Origin: Pirellulaceae bacterium
GTDB lineage: Bacteria; Planctomycetota; Planctomycetia; Pirellulales; Pirellulaceae
NCBI GenBank assembly: GCA_022448315.1
Contig: JAKVCA010000015.1
Coordinates: 1-56,835 of the forward strand
Direction: 5' to 3'
DNA: 56,835 nucleotides
Under the pieces are notes generated by a model that was given only the letters and a program-made list of their open reading frames with translations, made no database searches and had not been told where the DNA came from. The position numbers and the translations under genes are program-made. Within the stretch, counting starts at the first letter, position 1. Each line of letters starts with the position of its first letter. This document shows positions 13,744 to 25,143 of this stretch, in pieces.

Positions 13744-15720
13744 TCAGTCAACATAGACGAACTCATTGGTGTTGAGCATGGCCAAGCAAACATCTTTCCA
13801 TCGCTCGGGGAGATCTTCTTCCCCCGAGGACTGAACAAAAGACAAGACCTCTTGGACTTCTGCTGGAGTAGGAGGACGACTTACGGTCAGCACGAACAGG
13901 AGATGCACTTTGGATTCGGGACTGACCGCATCGGCCTTTAAACGCAGGGCGAGTCTTTCGGAGATTTCCCTCGAAAAATCAGAATTTAAAAGTTGGAGCG
14001 ATTGCAGTGCTGTGGTTGATTCGTAACGCCGGGCACAGCTTTCGTTACCGCTGGGCCGATCAAACGAGTCGAACAGCGGAAGGCGAAGATTGCGACGCGC
14101 GAAAACGTAGATGCTGCGTCGACGATGCTGGTTGGATTCAGGTGTCACATCCCATTGGCCTTTCAGAAGATCCTGCCGAACTTCCTGAGGGAGTGGGGGG
14201 CGAAAACTGGGACCATACTGCTGCGCGTTGAGGCTGCCTGAGATTTTCAACATGACATCCCGGAGCGACTCACCGGTTAATCTTTGTCTCGGAAAGTAGG
14301 CGAGGGTCAAATTTCTCGGGTCCTGCTCGATGGCGGATTTAAATTGTCGGAGGCGATCTGAGAGGTCCAGAGAGTCAGTCTCCATATCAAGGTCGGGATA
14401 GCTTCCGCGTTGATAAGCATCGGTGCAAACGATTTTTCGGTGCAGTCGCTTCAGGCTCCAATCGCCCTTGGTGAGTTCCGTTGCCAGCCAGTCCAGCAAC
14501 AGCGGGTGTGTCGGGGCGTCTCCCATGTATCCAAAATCACTCGGCGATCGACTCAAGCCATGCCCGAAGTGTTGCTGCCACGTTCGATTGACGATGACTC
14601 GTGAGGTCAACGGGTGTTGGTCTTGGGTGAGCCACTTCGCGAGAGCCCAGCGTCGTCGCGTCGTCTCGCCGGGCAGGCTCTCCGCGACGGCTTGTAGATG
14701 GGAATCGGTGGAATTGACGATACGAAGAAATGAGGGGACGACCTCGGGCCCCAAACGATCCCAATCTCCACGGATTCGCAAATGGCTTTTTGCAGGAGAC
14801 GGGTTCACTTCCTCAAGTAGGCTGACGGAAATGTTCTTTTTGACGTTGACCGCCGGTTCGAAAATCGCCCGCATCCTGTAGAAGTCGGCGTGGCTAATCG
14901 GGTCAAACTTGTGCTCGTGACATTGAGCGCAGCCGATTTGCAGACCCATGATTACGGATCCCACGTTGGCAGCAATGCCGTTGAGCAAGTGATTCTTGCG
15001 CTCGTCTTGTGAGTTGATGTCTGGCATGTCCGGACCCGCCAGGCAAAACGTGGTGGCGATTTTTGCCTGAGGATCCTCGGGTTCAATCTCGTCTCCGGCA
15101 AGTTGCAACGAAATGAACCTGTCGTAGCCGATGTCTTGATTGATCGCCTGAATGACCCAGTCTCGATATCTCCAAGCCTCGGCTCGAATTTTATCATGCT
15201 CAAACCCGTCCGTTTCCGCAAAACGGGCAAGGTCCAGCCAGCTTTGGGCTTGGTGTTCACCCAGTTGTGGGCTGGCAAGAAGTCGGTCAACAAGTCGCTC
15301 GATGGCATCCGGACGTGGGTCATCAAGCCATTGCCTCAATTCATCTGGAGTCGGCGGCAGACCGGTCAGGTCGAGGAACAGTCGGCGAACCAGAACTCGG
15401 CGACTCGCGGTCGGAACCGGGTCAATGTCGCGTAATTCAAGTTGCGCCAAAATGAATGTATCGATGGGGTGGTTGGCCTTCGATGCTGGTGACCAAGCGG
15501 GGAGCGATGGTCGCTGGAGAGGCCGAAATGCCCAATGATCACGATCGGATGCCGTAATCGGTGGTTCTTCGATGGCGGAGTCGGACGAGGTAAAATCGTC
15601 CTGAGCGTGGCCCTGAACAACAAGGCAGGCCCAAAGGGCCAGCGTGGTGGCAATCCAGTTCTGCCGATGATGGCTGGAGGCGATCTTTGGAGTTTCATAA
15701 CGCATCCATCGAAGGTTCAT
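13744..15720 (-). CDS. PSD1-type protein (DUF1549 + DUF1553) lacking the N-terminal cytochrome domain
   Basis: The 658-residue protein has a signal peptide (NWIATTLALWACLVVQGHAQ) and then goes straight into DUF1549 (RRLFLDLTGLPPTPDELRQW, then WLDLARFAETDGFEHD) without the usual CxxCH cytochrome-c-like module. DUF1549 keeps the conserved GCAQCHEHKFDPI near the middle. DUF1553 follows (LAKWLTQDQHPLTSRVIVNR, then QQHFGHGLSRSPSDFG and the C-terminal ALQSLQLLNSDF). These exported proteins are abundant in planctomycetes and nearly always sit next to a DUF1501 gene; their function is unproven. Here the start overlaps the DUF1501 stop by four bases (ATGA). At about 660 residues it is well below the 900-1100 of full PSD1 proteins. 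Confidence 0.93.
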   Translation of the reverse strand: MNLRWMRYETPKIASSHHRQNWIATTLALWACLVVQGHAQDDFTSSDSAIEEPPITASDRDHWAFRPLQRPSLPAWSPASKANHPIDTFILAQLELRDIDPVPTASRRVLVRRLFLDLTGLPPTPDELRQWLDDPRPDAIERLVDRLLASPQLGEHQAQSWLDLARFAETDGFEHDKIRAEAWRYRDWVIQAINQDIGYDRFISLQLAGDEIEPEDPQAKIATTFCLAGPDMPDINSQDERKNHLLNGIAANVGSVIMGLQIGCAQCHEHKFDPISHADFYRMRAIFEPAVNVKKNISVSLLEEVNPSPAKSHLRIRGDWDRLGPEVVPSFLRIVNSTDSHLQAVAESLPGETTRRRWALAKWLTQDQHPLTSRVIVNRTWQQHFGHGLSRSPSDFGYMGDAPTHPLLLDWLATELTKGDWSLKRLHRKIVCTDAYQRGSYPDLDMETDSLDLSDRLRQFKSAIEQDPRNLTLAYFPRQRLTGESLRDVMLKISGSLNAQQYGPSFRPPLPQEVRQDLLKGQWDVTPESNQHRRRSIYVFARRNLRLPLFDSFDRPSGNESCARRYESTTALQSLQLLNSDFSREISERLALRLKADAVSPESKVHLLFVLTVSRPPTPAEVQEVLSFVQSSGEEDLPERWKDVCLAMLNTNEFVYVD

Positions 15721-17120
15721 GCCAAGATCTCCTCAACCACTTCAGCTTCGTCCGGACCTGTGAGGCGTTGCGCGAGACCGTTGTGGAAAAAGGTCAACTC
15801 GTTATGGTCAATCCCGAGTAGATGTAGAAGCGTCGCATGGAAGTTCCGTACTGAGACCCGTTTTTCTGTTGCCCGAAGACCGACGTCGTCCGTGGCGCCG
15901 TAAGCGATGCCTTTTCGAAGTCCGCCCCCTGCAAGCCACATCGAGTAGCCCCACGGGTTATGATCTCGTCCCTTGCCCTGTTCGCTCATGGGCATGCGTC
16001 CGAATTCGCCACCCCAGATCACGAGGGTGTCGTCAAGCAGTCCTCGTTGTTTGAGATCAAACAGTAGACCAGCAACGGGAAAGTCAGTTCTGGCACAGTA
16101 TTCCCCATGGTTCTTGGCCACATCCGAATGGGCATCCCAACCGTTGGTATCTCCCGAGTAAAGCTGGACAAACCGTACGCCCTGCTCAAGCATTCGCCTC
16201 GCGAGCAGGCAACGTGTACCAAACTCTTGCGTTTCAGGGCGATCCATTCCGTAGAGTGAACGGGTGTAAGCGGACTCCTTCGAGAGGTCGACCAATTCCG
16301 GGGCGGCGGCCTGCATTCGGAAAGCGAGTTCGTAAGCCTGCATTCGCGTCGAGAGCTCATCATCACCGAGGCGTTGCTCGATATGCCTTTTGTTCAGTGA
16401 CTGAATGAGGTTCAGCGTCGAACGTTGTTCTCGTCGACTTCGGGTACTTGTCGGATTCAGATGAATCAGTGGAGTGGGGCCCGGTCGGACGGTCACGCCT
16501 TGGTGAGTCGCGGGCAAGTAGCCGCTGCCCCAGGCGGGTGGACCTCCTTTGATTCCGCCGCCCGGGTCCGGCAAAACGATAAAGGAGGGCAGGTTTTGAT
16601 TTTCTGAACCGAGTCCGTACGCGACCCAGCTTCCAAAACTGGGCCGTCCCATTAGTATCCCTCCGGTGTTCATCTGATACACGGCTTGAGGGTGGTTTAC
16701 GCTTTCACCATGCATGCTTCGAATGACACAAAGGTCATCCGCATGCTGAGAAATCGCCGGAAGAAAGTCGCTGATTTCCAGTCCACTGGCCCCCCGCTTT
16801 TTGAATGGCTTGATGGGGCCAAGGAGCGGGTTTTTCGCAACGGCGCGACGAGTCATCACCTGTCCGAAACTCTCGGGAAGCGGCTGCCCAGCATACTTGG
16901 TTAAGGCCGGCTTGGGATCCAAAAGGTCGACGTGAGAAGGACCACCGTGCATGAAGAGCCAGATCACTCGCTTGCATTTAGGCGAGTGCCCAGGGGCTTG
17001 GACCTCTGCCCCGGATGATGTCTTCGCGGCAAGGGAGGTGAGAGCTGCGGTCATCAGACCGGCACCCTGAGAACTGAGGAAACTCCGTCGGGAAAGCGGT
17101 TGAGGGGTGGGTTGGCTCAT
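15717..17120 (-). CDS. DUF1501 protein with Tat-type signal
   Basis: From the ATG at 17120 the protein has 467 residues; a start at 17147 would add nine residues before the signal. The N-terminus holds a twin-arginine motif (LSRRSFLSSQGAGLMTAALT), followed by the DUF1501 opening VIWLFMHGGPSHVDLLDPKP. Late motifs include VIWGGEFGRMPMSEQGKGRDHNPWG, characteristic of the family and related to the alkaline phosphatase/sulfatase fold. DUF1501 proteins are exported and paired with PSD1 proteins in planctomycetes; no enzymatic role is established. The stop codon overlaps the PSD1 start (ATGA at 15717-15720). Its own start overlaps the stop of a small upstream frame in the same way. Confidence 0.93.
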   Translation of the reverse strand: MSQPTPQPLSRRSFLSSQGAGLMTAALTSLAAKTSSGAEVQAPGHSPKCKRVIWLFMHGGPSHVDLLDPKPALTKYAGQPLPESFGQVMTRRAVAKNPLLGPIKPFKKRGASGLEISDFLPAISQHADDLCVIRSMHGESVNHPQAVYQMNTGGILMGRPSFGSWVAYGLGSENQNLPSFIVLPDPGGGIKGGPPAWGSGYLPATHQGVTVRPGPTPLIHLNPTSTRSRREQRSTLNLIQSLNKRHIEQRLGDDELSTRMQAYELAFRMQAAAPELVDLSKESAYTRSLYGMDRPETQEFGTRCLLARRMLEQGVRFVQLYSGDTNGWDAHSDVAKNHGEYCARTDFPVAGLLFDLKQRGLLDDTLVIWGGEFGRMPMSEQGKGRDHNPWGYSMWLAGGGLRKGIAYGATDDVGLRATEKRVSVRNFHATLLHLLGIDHNELTFFHNGLAQRLTGPDEAEVVEEILA

Positions 17121-17359
17121 GGCTTCGTACGTCGAGTTGAAAGGCATGCGAGGGGGCGCGAACGAACTTGCTCAATTCCAAACGCGACTTTCAGCGATTC
17201 GGCATGCCTAGGTAAAGCGATCAGTTGATTCCCAGTCTCATCATACACCCTCGCCGCCTTGAATGAAAAAGTGTCTGGGATCAAGAGGCTTTGTAAGGTG
17301 AATGTTTGTTGCGAAGTCGACGCAACTTCCCGGCGGGTCGAAGGGGTAGCTTGGATCAT
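17117..17359 (-). CDS. small unknown protein coupled to the DUF1501 gene (tentative)
   Basis: An 80-residue frame starts at an ATG five bases beyond the stop of the FkbM gene and ends with a TGA that overlaps the ATG of DUF1501 (ATGA at 17117-17120). The sequence is protein-like in its middle (LIPDTFSFKAARVYDETGNQ). AAGGAG lies directly against the ATG, closer than ideal for a ribosome site. There is no signal peptide, membrane helix or family I recognise. Position and overlap suggest a leader or coupled gene bridging FkbM and the PSD1 operon, but the frame might be chance. Confidence 0.33.
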   Translation of the reverse strand: MIQATPSTRREVASTSQQTFTLQSLLIPDTFSFKAARVYDETGNQLIALPRHAESLKVAFGIEQVRSRPLACLSTRRTKP

Positions 17360-21124: not shown

Positions 21125-22519
21125 TTATGGTTTGCTCAGTAAAAACTTCATTGCTCGGCGCAGTTCGCGGTCGATCGAGGGTTCGCAGAAAGCGACACTC
21201 ACCTCATAACCCCCACATTCATACTCTTCAGCCGTCGGGATATACCATGGCCCACCGTCTCCGTAAGCAGCTGTAGCCACAGTGAGTTCGGATGCGATCT
21301 GCTGTGCTGCGAGTTGATACTCGATAAAACATTCGGCGGGTAGATGCAGGAGGGCAAGGTCGTTGATGCAAAGGCTGCTCAGGATGATCGGTGTCCGCTG
21401 GCGAACACGATTGAGCCATGCGACAGTGTAAGCAGGGCGATTCCGATTGACCGTGGTCTGCTTCGGGTCGGCAATCTGCAATTCGAGTGCTTCAGCATCG
21501 AAGAGCCCTCGAGGTTCCGGGATCATCTCCTGAGTCCGCCAATGAAGGTTGCGGATGGGGGTCTTTGATAATTGCTCATCACTGGATTGCATGGCACGGA
21601 AGAGCCGATCGGTAAGCTGTTTTCGTGATTCGGGTGTCCCATCGTTGTATTTGCCCGCCGCGACGTTTCCCGCGCAGCCGGTGAAGTAGAGATGGCAGCA
21701 CCCAGGTTGCTCGGCTTGCAATCTCTTTCGGGCTAGACCCACGAAGTCACTGGTCACGCGACCGTCCGCGTAGTAGCTCATGGGGTGAGTGGCATAATAA
21801 TGGCTGCAGGCAACCTTGCGATCGCCCGAATAGAAGGCCACCGTTTTCAGCCAGGGGTCAATGGTCCCTTCGGGTAACGCACGTAGCGTCGCGTCACGGC
21901 AGCTGCTTCCACGCATGCTTGTGATGCGACCCTCTTCGTTTCGAGCCACACGCCGATTCGCGCCGACTTTATCCACTTCGGCCTGCCCCCAACCCACATG
22001 GGTTAATGGGACGGCTTGGTTCAACGACTCACGAGCTGCGGTCTCCGCACGCTTGAGGCACTGTTGAAAAAAATCCGTATCGACGATCGCTGGCAGGTCG
22101 GGGTGTTTGGAAACAATCTTTTGTGCATCGAGGCAGGCAAATGGGGCATTGTGTTGGTGAACACATTGGACTGCCACCTGGTCTGCTGAAGTGCCGACCG
22201 CGTTGGCCAAGGTTTCTCGCCACTGAATATGCGCCGTGTTCAATAGCCCGGTCCAGTCAACGCTGCAAACCACAACCGGTTTTTCAAGCCCCAGAATGAC
22301 GAAGCCAAGGGCTTCCAAAGTGTCGTCGACCACTTCCACGGGTTTGATCCAGCCACCGCAGCAGGAATGACCAATCGGAGGCGTGACATCGAATCGGAAT
22401 GTCGCGATTCTTAGACCCGCCGCAAATTCGCTACCCTGAAGTCCGGATTCACCGAGTTGCCAGGCCCAAGGGGTTAATGCAGCGGCTTGAATCAGTTGTC
22501 GACGGTTCAACTTCGACAT
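21125..22519 (-). CDS. neutral/alkaline ceramidase-like protein, Tat-type signal
   Basis: From the ATG at 22519 the product is 464 residues, beginning with MSKLNRRQLIQAAALTPWAW, a twin-arginine-like signal. The body matches the neutral ceramidase N-terminal-domain family found in planctomycetes: FDVTPPIGH at the start of the domain, VQCVHQHNAPF as the metal-binding His pair, YATHPMSYY and SDFVGLARKRL mid-protein, and GPWYIPTAEEYECGGYE near the end. True neutral ceramidases are 650 residues or more with an extra C-terminal domain, so this short form may hydrolyse another N-acyl amide. It is the third same-strand gene after the inositol oxygenase and the TIM-barrel protein (57-bp gap), suggesting one transcript. 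A paralogue is at 51249-52646. Confidence 0.85.
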   Translation of the reverse strand: MSKLNRRQLIQAAALTPWAWQLGESGLQGSEFAAGLRIATFRFDVTPPIGHSCCGGWIKPVEVVDDTLEALGFVILGLEKPVVVCSVDWTGLLNTAHIQWRETLANAVGTSADQVAVQCVHQHNAPFACLDAQKIVSKHPDLPAIVDTDFFQQCLKRAETAARESLNQAVPLTHVGWGQAEVDKVGANRRVARNEEGRITSMRGSSCRDATLRALPEGTIDPWLKTVAFYSGDRKVACSHYYATHPMSYYADGRVTSDFVGLARKRLQAEQPGCCHLYFTGCAGNVAAGKYNDGTPESRKQLTDRLFRAMQSSDEQLSKTPIRNLHWRTQEMIPEPRGLFDAEALELQIADPKQTTVNRNRPAYTVAWLNRVRQRTPIILSSLCINDLALLHLPAECFIEYQLAAQQIASELTVATAAYGDGGPWYIPTAEEYECGGYEVSVAFCEPSIDRELRRAMKFLLSKP

Positions 22520-22576
22520 GTCACACTCCCTTCGTCGTGAGGTCCATGTGCCGAGATTCGATGAAATCAATTCGGC

Positions 22577-23458
22577 TTATTGCGACGTCATTTTTTCAAA
22601 GAGTTGCCGCTGCTCGATCAGTGCTGCGACTTTGTCCTTGGGGTTGGTTCGCGCTTCCAGCAGGATCCATCCTTCGTAGTCCATGTCCATAAAACGCTTC
22701 ATCAGATCCGCGTAGGGGTAGTTGCCGACGTTGAGTTCACGGATGTGGACGGTTTGTCCAAAGCGATCTTTGACCATGTCAAAGTTGGCCGCGAGACCTG
22801 CGCCTTTCAGATCCACGTCATTGGAGTTCCAGCAGACGCCGACATTCGGATGATCCGCCACCTCAAAGATGGCCTTCATGACAGGCAGTTCGCTCGTTCC
22901 TGATCCATGGACTTCGACGCGGATTTCCTGACCGAATCCAGCTCCATATTCTGCGACTTCATTTAGCGCTTTCCCGATCTGTTCGATGGTTTGGTCTCGT
23001 GGCACATCCTTGACGAAGCCGTTGGGTTTGACCTTCACCCCGGAGCCGCCGCAATCATGCATCAACTCGATGTACCTTTTGGTCAAGTCAATGTTTGCCT
23101 TCAAGCGATCAGGATCATTCTCGTGGTACTGCGCATTGGAACCGTAGCCAACAAGTTCCACGGAACTGTCTGCGAAACGCGCGGCAACCTCTTTGCGTTG
23201 TGCGGCCGTCAGTTCGGGCTCAACACCATGTTTGTGTTGCGTTCGAACTTCGACTCCCTGGAGACCAGATTTCTCGCAGGTATCGATCAACTCGGGGAGT
23301 GAAAAATCTTTGCCCCACAAATAGGTCACCAGGCCAAACTGCATGTGGTGTTCAGCCATCGGTTCAGAACTGGCGGCACTGAGAGTTGGATTGAGCCCTA
23401 GCCCAACGGCCGTCGCGGTAGAAGCCTGACAGAAAACTCTTCGGTTTGGATGGTTCAT
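22577..23458 (-). CDS. TIM-barrel sugar isomerase/epimerase family protein, exported
   Basis: The 293-residue protein belongs to the xylose isomerase-like/AP-endonuclease-2 TIM-barrel family: GLVTYLWGKDFSLPELID, GLQGVEVRTQHKHGVEPELT, GVKVKPNGFVKD, VRVEVHGSGTSELPVM (metal-binding Glu and His), VGVCWNSNDVD, and EGWILLEARTNPKD near the end. The first 30 residues (NRRVFCQASTATAVGLGLNP) form a twin-arginine-like export signal, common in planctomycete members. Characterised relatives isomerise or epimerise sugars or inositol derivatives. It lies between the inositol oxygenase gene (150 bp upstream) and the ceramidase-like gene, so it may act on glucuronate or an inosose; that is inference. Confidence 0.88.
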   Translation of the reverse strand: MNHPNRRVFCQASTATAVGLGLNPTLSAASSEPMAEHHMQFGLVTYLWGKDFSLPELIDTCEKSGLQGVEVRTQHKHGVEPELTAAQRKEVAARFADSSVELVGYGSNAQYHENDPDRLKANIDLTKRYIELMHDCGGSGVKVKPNGFVKDVPRDQTIEQIGKALNEVAEYGAGFGQEIRVEVHGSGTSELPVMKAIFEVADHPNVGVCWNSNDVDLKGAGLAANFDMVKDRFGQTVHIRELNVGNYPYADLMKRFMDMDYEGWILLEARTNPKDKVAALIEQRQLFEKMTSQ

Positions 23459-23609
23459 GATGTCCTCTTTTGCGGGCCGTCGCGAAAGCTCAGGATTAGG
23501 TGAAGTCTCAACAAGTGATTCAGCTTTAATTTACCATGGCACGAGGGGAACGTCGAAAATGATCCGTCCCTACCCGTCCTAAGATGCGGAAGGCTTTGTC
23601 TTTGAGTCT

Positions 23610-24494
23610 TCAAAAGCTCAATTCGGCAGGAAGATATTTTCGAATCAATTCCATGTAATAAGGCTTGAGTTCGTTCCAGTTGGGTGGCGTTGGGTTTTTG
23701 GAGTACAAGTCGTAAGGATTGAAGGCCTGGACCCACGGCAGCATCTCGCGATCATGATCATCACAAAGGTGATCGTATTGCCCTTCCCGGTGCCAAGCGT
23801 AAAAGGAGTGGTACCGGATCATGTAGAGGGCGGGCTCTGGTAGGTAATCCTTCATGACGTGGAACAGATATTCATCATGACCCCAGGACATCAGGACCTT
23901 GCGTAGCCCGCAGCCGGGTTCGTACATGCCAGACTCGGAGCCGTAGTCAGGAACGGCCCGATCCGGATTTTCATCAAAGAATCCGTGGTAGACGATTCGG
24001 TTGTTGAAGGCACAGCCTACCGGGAATGTATCCCCGACCACGGCCCACTGTGGTTCTCCAAACAGGCAGAGCAGCTTTCCGAGGTCATGCACCAATCCGG
24101 TGAGGACAAACCAGTCTGGGTGACCATCGTGGCGAATACTTTCGGAGGTTTGCAGGAGATGTTGAAGCTGATCGAGTTCGATATCTGGGTCGGAGTCATC
24201 CACCAGTGTGTTCAAGTAATCCAACGCTTCAAGAACCGTCAGGCGACGCGTTTGCAGAGGGAGGTACTTGGCCCGCTGAGCTTCGACAAAGTCGACCGTC
24301 TGATGGCGGTGATTCTTTCGATAAAAATCTCGAACCCCCTCTCGAGCCTGTGCATCATAATTTCGGTAGCTACTTTGGGGCTTATGTGGCTCCGGGTAAA
24401 CATGGTTCGCGACGAATTCTTCCCAGTCATGCATGTCCCGCCGTGCAGTTTCAGGGGGAAGGTCCGAATCTTCGGGGTAGTGTGGAGTCATCAT
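23610..24494 (-). CDS. myo-inositol oxygenase (MIOX family)
   Basis: The product is 294 residues from the ATG at 24494 (another ATG follows at once; AGAGGTGG precedes them). It closely matches the animal and plant MIOX fold along its length: SSYRNYDAQ, HQTVDFVEAQRAKY, TVLEALDYLNTLVDDSDPDI, FGEPQWAVVGDTFPVGC, LMSWGHDEYLF, MIRYHSFYAWH, MLPWVQAFNPYDLYSK. All six di-iron ligands known from the human enzyme are present: His125, His136, Asp137, His206, His229, Asp262. MIOX uses oxygen to cleave myo-inositol to D-glucuronate. No signal peptide, so cytoplasmic. The next genes on the strand are a TIM-barrel isomerase-like and a ceramidase-like protein. Bacterial MIOX is uncommon as far as I know. Confidence 0.93.
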   Translation of the reverse strand: MMTPHYPEDSDLPPETARRDMHDWEEFVANHVYPEPHKPQSSYRNYDAQAREGVRDFYRKNHRHQTVDFVEAQRAKYLPLQTRRLTVLEALDYLNTLVDDSDPDIELDQLQHLLQTSESIRHDGHPDWFVLTGLVHDLGKLLCLFGEPQWAVVGDTFPVGCAFNNRIVYHGFFDENPDRAVPDYGSESGMYEPGCGLRKVLMSWGHDEYLFHVMKDYLPEPALYMIRYHSFYAWHREGQYDHLCDDHDREMLPWVQAFNPYDLYSKNPTPPNWNELKPYYMELIRKYLPAELSF

Positions 24495-24726
24495 TCCACC
24501 TCTTTTCACGGGAGTGTCACGGCACCGTGTTTTAATACCGCGCGGCTGCGTTCTGATTCTACCGAAACGTAGTGAGGGGTGTGGGAAATCCGGCCAGTGT
24601 TCCTTAGCCTGTTACTGATCGGGGAGCGTCTGTTGGGAAGCCCATGGTGGAAGTGGCAAACTCGGGATTCCATCTATCGCTCTCCTTGAGTCAGGCGTTT
24701 TTGTCATGACGTCTCTTTAACGACCC

Positions 24727-25143
24727 ATGCAACTTGAGAATTCCGTGAGCGACTTTCCCTATCATCGGTTTTCCCTGGTCTGGTTACCCAACGCTTTTAA
24801 AATCATGCGTTTTCCAGCCAACGCGGATGTTCCACTGGACCAACTTGGGGGTGCGAACCTGTTCTTGGCGAGGACTTCGGATGAAGTTTCGGTTCTATGT
24901 GAGGCACGGCAAGAACTGATCAGCGATTCGAGTCACGGACCTTTACGTGGCTTTCGGGTTGCAGGCCAGCTTGAATTTGAATTGGTGGGGGTTCTTGCCG
25001 AACTGACCAGGGTCTTGGCGAGGGCAAAAATCAGTGTCGTCACCGAGTCGACATTCAACACGGACTACATTTTTATCGAGGAATCTGCTGTAGAGTCTGC
25101 GATCGCCGCATTGCAGGACGCCGGATTCAAATTTGACACTTGA
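24727..25143 (+). CDS. ACT-domain-containing protein
   Basis: A 138-residue protein from the ATG at 24727. The C-terminal half (FRVAGQLEFELVGVLAELTR, ISVVTESTFNTDYIFIEES, VESAIAALQDAGFKF) is a typical ACT-type beta-alpha-beta fold, and the N-terminal half looks like the leading subdomain of small tandem-ACT proteins of the CASTOR/DUF-type. Such proteins bind amino acids and act as sensors. It is cytoplasmic, divergent from the inositol oxygenase gene (shared 230-bp region), and precedes the 2-hydroxyacid dehydrogenase by 98 bp on the same strand. A regulatory or chaperone link to that dehydrogenase is possible but not shown. Confidence 0.8.
   Translation: MQLENSVSDFPYHRFSLVWLPNAFKIMRFPANADVPLDQLGGANLFLARTSDEVSVLCEARQELISDSSHGPLRGFRVAGQLEFELVGVLAELTRVLARAKISVVTESTFNTDYIFIEESAVESAIAALQDAGFKFDT

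Follow-up and report, generated by a model that had tools for sequence, protein, structure and literature searches.

A probable bacterial myo-inositol oxygenase in a Pirellulaceae genome and its relatives across bacterial phyla

The gene and its predicted active site

The window, by which is meant the whole stretch of 56,835 nucleotides of Pirellulaceae DNA analysed here, carries a gene for a myo-inositol oxygenase (MIOX), the one MIOX found in this 5.03 Mb genome, where it lies on contig C34. The gene and its main features are as follows.

23610-24494, minus strand: miox, myo-inositol oxygenase gene, 294 aa (open reading frame; PF05153, 362 bits over the whole profile; 2HUO, E 3.5e-85)
23709-24161, minus strand: codons of the six di-iron ligands, H112 (24159-24161), H136-D137 (24084-24089), H206 (23877-23879), H229 (23808-23810) and D262 (23709-23711), from the alignment with mouse MIOX
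24496-24502, minus strand: GAGGTGG, a purine-rich, putative Shine-Dalgarno-like element read from the sequence directly before a paired ATG ATG start

The reading frame is intact, running from an ATG at 24494 to a stop codon that ends at 23610, and a search of 23400-24760 returned no consensus sigma-70 promoter. The identification of the product as MIOX, made in the original prediction, holds. Indeed, the Pfam match covers residues 52-294 and profile positions 2-249 of 249 (E 2.1e-108; 362 bits with a cut-off of 25), and a PDB sequence search with the protein returned mouse MIOX (2HUO/3BXD, E 3.5e-85) and human MIOX (2IBN, E 3.5e-82) and, up to E 1, no other solved relatives. The blocks described as animal-like, namely FGEPQWAVVGDTFPVGC, LMSWGHDEY and HSFY.WH (here HSFYAWH), are likewise all present in the protein and align to the mouse and human enzymes, the aligned animal variants being WGEPQ in mouse and FGEPQ in human. 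The composition of miox is native and like that of the neighbouring genes, with a GC3 of 0.593 against a mean of 0.579 (sd 0.025) and a GC content of 0.527 against 0.539 (sd 0.017) over the 27 open reading frames of the window, MIOX included.

Animal MIOX relies on a mixed-valent di-iron centre that cleaves myo-inositol with O2 to generate D-glucuronate. The di-iron ligands of the mouse enzyme, which we take to be H98, H123, D124, H194, H220 and D253, correspond in the alignment to H112, H136, D137, H206, H229 and D262 of the window protein, which bears out the earlier claim that all six (four histidines and two aspartates) are kept. Among eight further positions that presumably belong to the mouse active site, R29, D85, K127, G141, D142, S221 and K257 are identical in the window protein, giving identity at 13 of the 14 positions checked, while D82 is T96 in the window and T, Q or E across 144 bacterial MIOX rows, in all of which (144/144, some genes counted twice) the same 13 positions are identical to mouse. 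The window protein is therefore similar to animal MIOX in whole-domain homology, in the six ligands and in seven of the eight further positions, and differs from it in overall identity (51-53% to mouse), in the threonine that replaces D82 and in the long branch lying between mammals and the bacterial group. Homology and active-site conservation support the expectation that the enzyme would yield D-glucuronate, with a mixed-valent di-iron centre in an HD-domain fold binding myo-inositol and cleaving its ring with one O2.

Distribution and phylogeny of bacterial MIOX

In a scan of a genome collection with one genome per species, at least 593 stretches encode MIOX relatives, and the best 80 were kept as named loci. 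These 80 of at least 593 belong to Bacteroidota (40), Planctomycetota (17), Verrucomicrobiota (12), Pseudomonadota (3), Armatimonadota (2), Acidobacteriota (2), Hydrogenedentota (1), Cyanobacteriota (1) and Gemmatimonadota (1), nine named phyla overall with one locus unassigned, and the phylum shares are biased because the named loci are the best matches to the window query. The 13 best-ranked among the matches listed (L018-L030) are planctomycete MAGs. Within the phylum of the window, a draw of 392 genomes, own genome included, gave 17 with a match, 15 above the cut-off and 13 full-length (the window's included); in the window's family, 91 of 241 genomes have a match and 89 of 241 are above the cut-off (own genome and some fragments included). 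These counts indicate that MIOX is widespread among bacteria, with few carriers in the phylum draw and many in the window's family. Some of the fetched loci overlap and some genes were taken twice (L020 and L139, for example, look like one contig of 98,487 bases), so that the 144 MIOX rows and the 58 planctomycete loci are not all independent. Two plasmid records in PLSDB already carry the name 'inositol oxygenase family protein' in their gene tables. The original prediction had called such an oxygenase unusual in bacteria and had named a large bacterial MIOX group as the outcome that would count against its view; that group is what the scans found. A mobile-element gene was also considered and rejected: no MIOX is present among 50,697 phage records, the 12 pattern matches of an IMG/VR pattern scan include no MIOX relative, and 3 of 72,556 plasmid records carry one.

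Identity of the window protein to planctomycete MIOX reaches 73-74%, and mouse MIOX is about equally close to its 15 best bacterial matches (49.6-53.2%). For the phylogeny, the 144 MIOX rows were reduced to 104 by an 88% identity filter, and 55 hand-chosen rows were combined with the window and two mammals, the only eukaryotes in the trees, into a 58-row tree that omits the long-branch row L013; the trees are unrooted. The five rows nearest to the window are four planctomycete and one Verrucomicrobiales, and the mammals attach beside the window's planctomycete group through a branch of 1.62 changes per column, both falling in the smallest well-supported set that contains the window (17 rows, 99/96). 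Since the AU test did not reject the mammals on the window's own branch (p 0.503), the divergent MIOX of a Catenovulum plasmid was added, which is 39-41% identical to the mammals, 36-37% to its best other bacterial matches and 34.7% to the window. In the resulting 52-row tree, from which eight of the 58 rows were removed and to which Catenovulum and Granulicella were added, the mammals and Catenovulum stand opposite the 49 other bacterial rows, window included, across a long branch (99/98). In parallel, the attachment of the mammals shifted to a place beside the planctomycete row L126 with weak support (81/55), which makes the attachment seen in the 58-row tree unstable, and the AU test again did not reject the window's branch (p 0.506). 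The mammal branch is so long that its point of attachment is weak evidence.

On these comparisons of sequence, the window gene belongs to a large set of bacterial genes and is not a recent acquisition from an animal. A move from an animal-like eukaryotic donor into the planctomycete lineage would account for the identity to mouse MIOX and for the position of the mammals beside the window's group, which both AU tests tolerate, yet such an origin is highly improbable: the window protein is much closer to planctomycete MIOX, the mouse enzyme is about equally near many bacterial ones, the mammals go with Catenovulum once it is included, their long branch weakens any placement, the eukaryotic sampling consists of two mammals and the composition of the gene is native. 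Recent transfer from animals was set aside on identity, tree and composition, with both AU tests still allowing the mammals to attach on the window's branch. Neither the label 'eukaryotic-type' nor the suggestion of a transferred gene is supported, given the large bacterial group and the identities to planctomycetes and mouse; the 99/98 split speaks against the label, and the AU tests tolerate the mammals on the window's branch. The MIOX phylogeny that had been proposed as a check, here run with two mammals, places the window in a large bacterial group, with an AU p of about 0.5 for mammals attaching on the window's branch.

MIOX may have passed between bacteria and eukaryotes in the distant past, one way or the other, since the AU tests do not fix where the mammals attach. 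That eukaryotic MIOX descends from an ancient bacterial MIOX, through passage from bacteria to eukaryotes or through common descent, is a serious possibility, if one that falls somewhat below an even prospect. The large and diverse bacterial family and the closeness of the Catenovulum enzyme to mammals speak for it, whereas the direction would need a root and broad eukaryotic sampling, and the trees are unrooted, contain two mammals and place them unstably. Such a descent is compatible with the preferred explanation, which is that the window gene is very probably an ordinary bacterial myo-inositol oxygenase making D-glucuronate, which may feed a uronate route, from a MIOX group spread across Planctomycetota, Bacteroidota, Verrucomicrobiota and other phyla, with transfer among bacteria suggested by the mixed phyla in the trees.

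Two divergent relatives deserve separate mention. Plasmid pCadTS8_2 of Catenovulum adriaticum (L159:8959-9942) holds the gammaproteobacterial MIOX that is nearer to mouse and human than to its bacterial matches, with genes for a phosphatidylinositol-specific phospholipase C, a metallophosphoesterase and a TonB receptor within 9 kb, and it is a better candidate than the window gene for an exchange with eukaryotes. The MIOX of L013 (genome G030, from another family of the phylum) is fast-evolving, with an end branch of 1.71 in a quick 107-row tree whose free search was 58 log units worse than the constrained one; an Ino1 match lies about 9 kb from it on the same contig, a possible locus of inositol synthesis and oxidation.

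Neighbouring genes, inositol import and the fate of glucuronate

No linked transporter or recognised inositol gene was found beside miox in the window. Downstream of miox, two genes 6 bases apart occupy 21125-23458 on the minus strand; one (22577-23458) encodes a xylose-isomerase-like TIM-barrel protein with a Tat-like N-terminus by reading, and the other a protein of 481 aa with no Pfam or NCBIfam match at E 0.001. When 16 window proteins were compared with L002-L097 at E 1e-10, no relatives emerged for the TIM-barrel gene or for the genes at 21125-22570 and 24727, and the 25242 gene had one partial match. In a looser search of these four neighbour proteins against 159 loci, one partial dehydrogenase match was found in one genome (L006/L137), and another of the four proteins had two weak matches (L123 and L052). 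An operon of miox with its window neighbours was rejected, as these neighbours are not conserved beside MIOX in the 159 loci. Further along the minus strand, DUF1501 and PSD1/PSCyt2 (DUF1553/DUF1549) genes stand in tandem at 13744-17147. The DUF1501 gene (15717-17147) has relatives in seven fetched loci, among them L016 with a weak MIOX match only; their positions vary and were not counted as linkage to MIOX, and their recurrence is probably due to the abundance of the family.

The relatives present a different picture. Of the 97 loci L001-L097, many of which have short flanks, 34 hold a sodium/solute symporter gene besides MIOX; it lies within 1.05 kb of MIOX in 33 of these 34 and on the same strand in 31. 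Among the best 80 of at least 593 stretches, the symporter is near MIOX in 32 of 40 loci from Bacteroidota and in 2 of 17 from Planctomycetota, and genes read from sequence as an RbsABC-like ABC transporter lie ahead of MIOX in 4 of the 58 planctomycete loci, a total that includes the window. This context of the relatives supports a role in inositol catabolism. In the window's own genome, contig C43 encodes a symporter (PF00474, akin to solved sodium/glucose cotransporters) that is 43% identical (398 bits) to the symporter encoded next to MIOX in L029 and is a candidate inositol importer; no inositol gene was recognised among its ten neighbours, scanned together with the symporter itself. Both plasmid loci, from Granulicella and from Catenovulum, also encode a phosphatidylinositol-specific phospholipase C, some 7 kb away from MIOX. 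On plasmid pACIX901 of Granulicella tundricola (L160:7212-18322), MIOX is found with a GRP-family sugar transporter, a LacI regulator and this phospholipase C-like gene, an arrangement that suggests the use of phosphatidylinositol head groups.

A bacterial homologue with published activity is the MIOX of Flavobacterium johnsoniae. According to the available text of PMC4551912, this enzyme is 45% identical to mouse MIOX and, in E. coli carrying Udh, reached a glucarate titre very close to that obtained with the mouse enzyme; the available texts of two other reports describe it as having the highest titre among homologues screened in yeast (PMC12076931) and as the best of four homologues in a further screen cited in PMC11683335. 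As MIOX activity limits titres in glucaric acid production, again by the available text of PMC4551912, bacterial MIOX enzymes are candidates for this use. Like the window protein the F. johnsoniae enzyme is bacterial, and the Bacteroidota rows among the matches listed are 59-71% identical to the window, the F. johnsoniae sequence itself standing outside the alignment. It differs in coming from another phylum, one in which the symporter is usually near MIOX (the 32 of 40 loci given above), whereas the window has none.

The steps after glucuronate are partly visible in the genome. Genome scans of the own genome gave no match to UxuA or to Ino1 and one weak match to UxaC (46-47 bits), and such absences are not firm, as the first pass of the scans was loose and the own 47-bit UxaC-like match was seen in one scan and missed in the family scan. 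The UxaC-like protein, on contig C40 (L158:8364-9938), scores 543 bits to PDB 4I6V and 57 bits to the uronate isomerase BH0493; weak UxaC-like genes occur in MIOX-negative genomes too. In the planctomycete sample, UxaC above 200 bits is present in 5 of the 13 genomes with MIOX and 2 of the 20 without it, and in the window's family in 3 of 35 and 2 of 21, respectively, with weak matches in 16 of the 35; the family scan included one genome, G128, that belongs to another family. UxuA above the cut-off occurs in 3 of the 13 genomes with MIOX and 8 of the 20 without and thus does not go with MIOX. On contig C39, a KDPG aldolase gene (above the eda cut-off) adjoins a KDG-kinase-like gene (PF00294, below the NCBIfam cut-offs). 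The search for a uronate isomerase or other glucuronate genes that the original prediction had proposed was therefore successful in part, with the C40 and C39 genes recovered and UxuA missing. As the middle steps were not found in the own genome, we infer everything that follows glucuronate.

This incompleteness, together with the lack of recognised inositol genes beside miox and the threonine at the mouse D82 position, could point to a MIOX-fold enzyme for another cyclitol, such as scyllo- or chiro-inositol. Such a specificity is unlikely when set against the match to mouse at 13 of 14 active-site positions and the activity of the F. johnsoniae homologue on myo-inositol, reported in the available text of PMC4551912 for a protein 45% identical to mouse. 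The most likely function is still the conversion of myo-inositol and O2 to D-glucuronate, predicted to feed a uronate route. In such a scheme, inositol would be imported by the symporter coded on contig C43 and oxidised by MIOX, and the glucuronate would enter a uronate route that perhaps starts with the divergent uronate-isomerase-like protein of contig C40 and would end in the KDG-kinase-like protein and the KDPG aldolase of contig C39.

The oxygenase route and the Iol pathway

The Iol pathway (IolG, IolE, IolD, IolB, IolC) has its substrate, myo-inositol, in common with MIOX and differs from it in chemistry. Its marker IolB is rare in the window's family, where 3 of 241 genomes have a match and 2 of 241 are above the cut-off, one of these two (G442) also having MIOX. 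IolD passes its cut-off in none of the 33 planctomycete genomes scanned and in 3 of 14 controls. In the own genome, no IolB match was found and the best IolD-like match reaches 225 bits against a cut-off of 715, so that the pair of IolB and IolD by which an Iol organism was recognised did not turn up there. A survey of 193,757 bacterial genomes, published in 2022, puts the share of Bacteroidetes species with Iol clusters at 3% (of 2,227); an inositol oxygenase comes up a single time in its main text, in connection with yeast, and the strings 'MIOX' and 'planctomycet' are absent from that main text (PMC9430895). In the openly accessible literature, as far as its available texts go, no study of what MIOX does for the bacteria that carry it was found. 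A Lake Michigan metatranscriptome lists inositol oxygenase, in the available text, among the gene families with more transcripts nearshore (PMC13101498).

Taken alone, the window gene is ordinary, and the part worth keeping is the picture at the level of the family, in which MIOX is above the cut-off in 89 of 241 genomes and IolB in 2 of 241. An oxygenase-based route of inositol use would thus occur in groups that are mostly without the tested Iol markers, for which it may stand in. A broader proposal comes close to an even call and is put forward tentatively: in the window's family and in many Bacteroidota, a symporter (or an ABC importer) and MIOX would form the main entry of inositol and replace the Iol pathway, surveys of Iol clusters alone would underestimate bacterial inositol use, and in some planctomycetes glucuronate would pass through a divergent BH0493-related isomerase and not through canonical UxaC. 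Collectively, the bacterial MIOX genes point as a group to an O2-dependent route of inositol use that, going by the main text of PMC9430895, was not counted in that survey.
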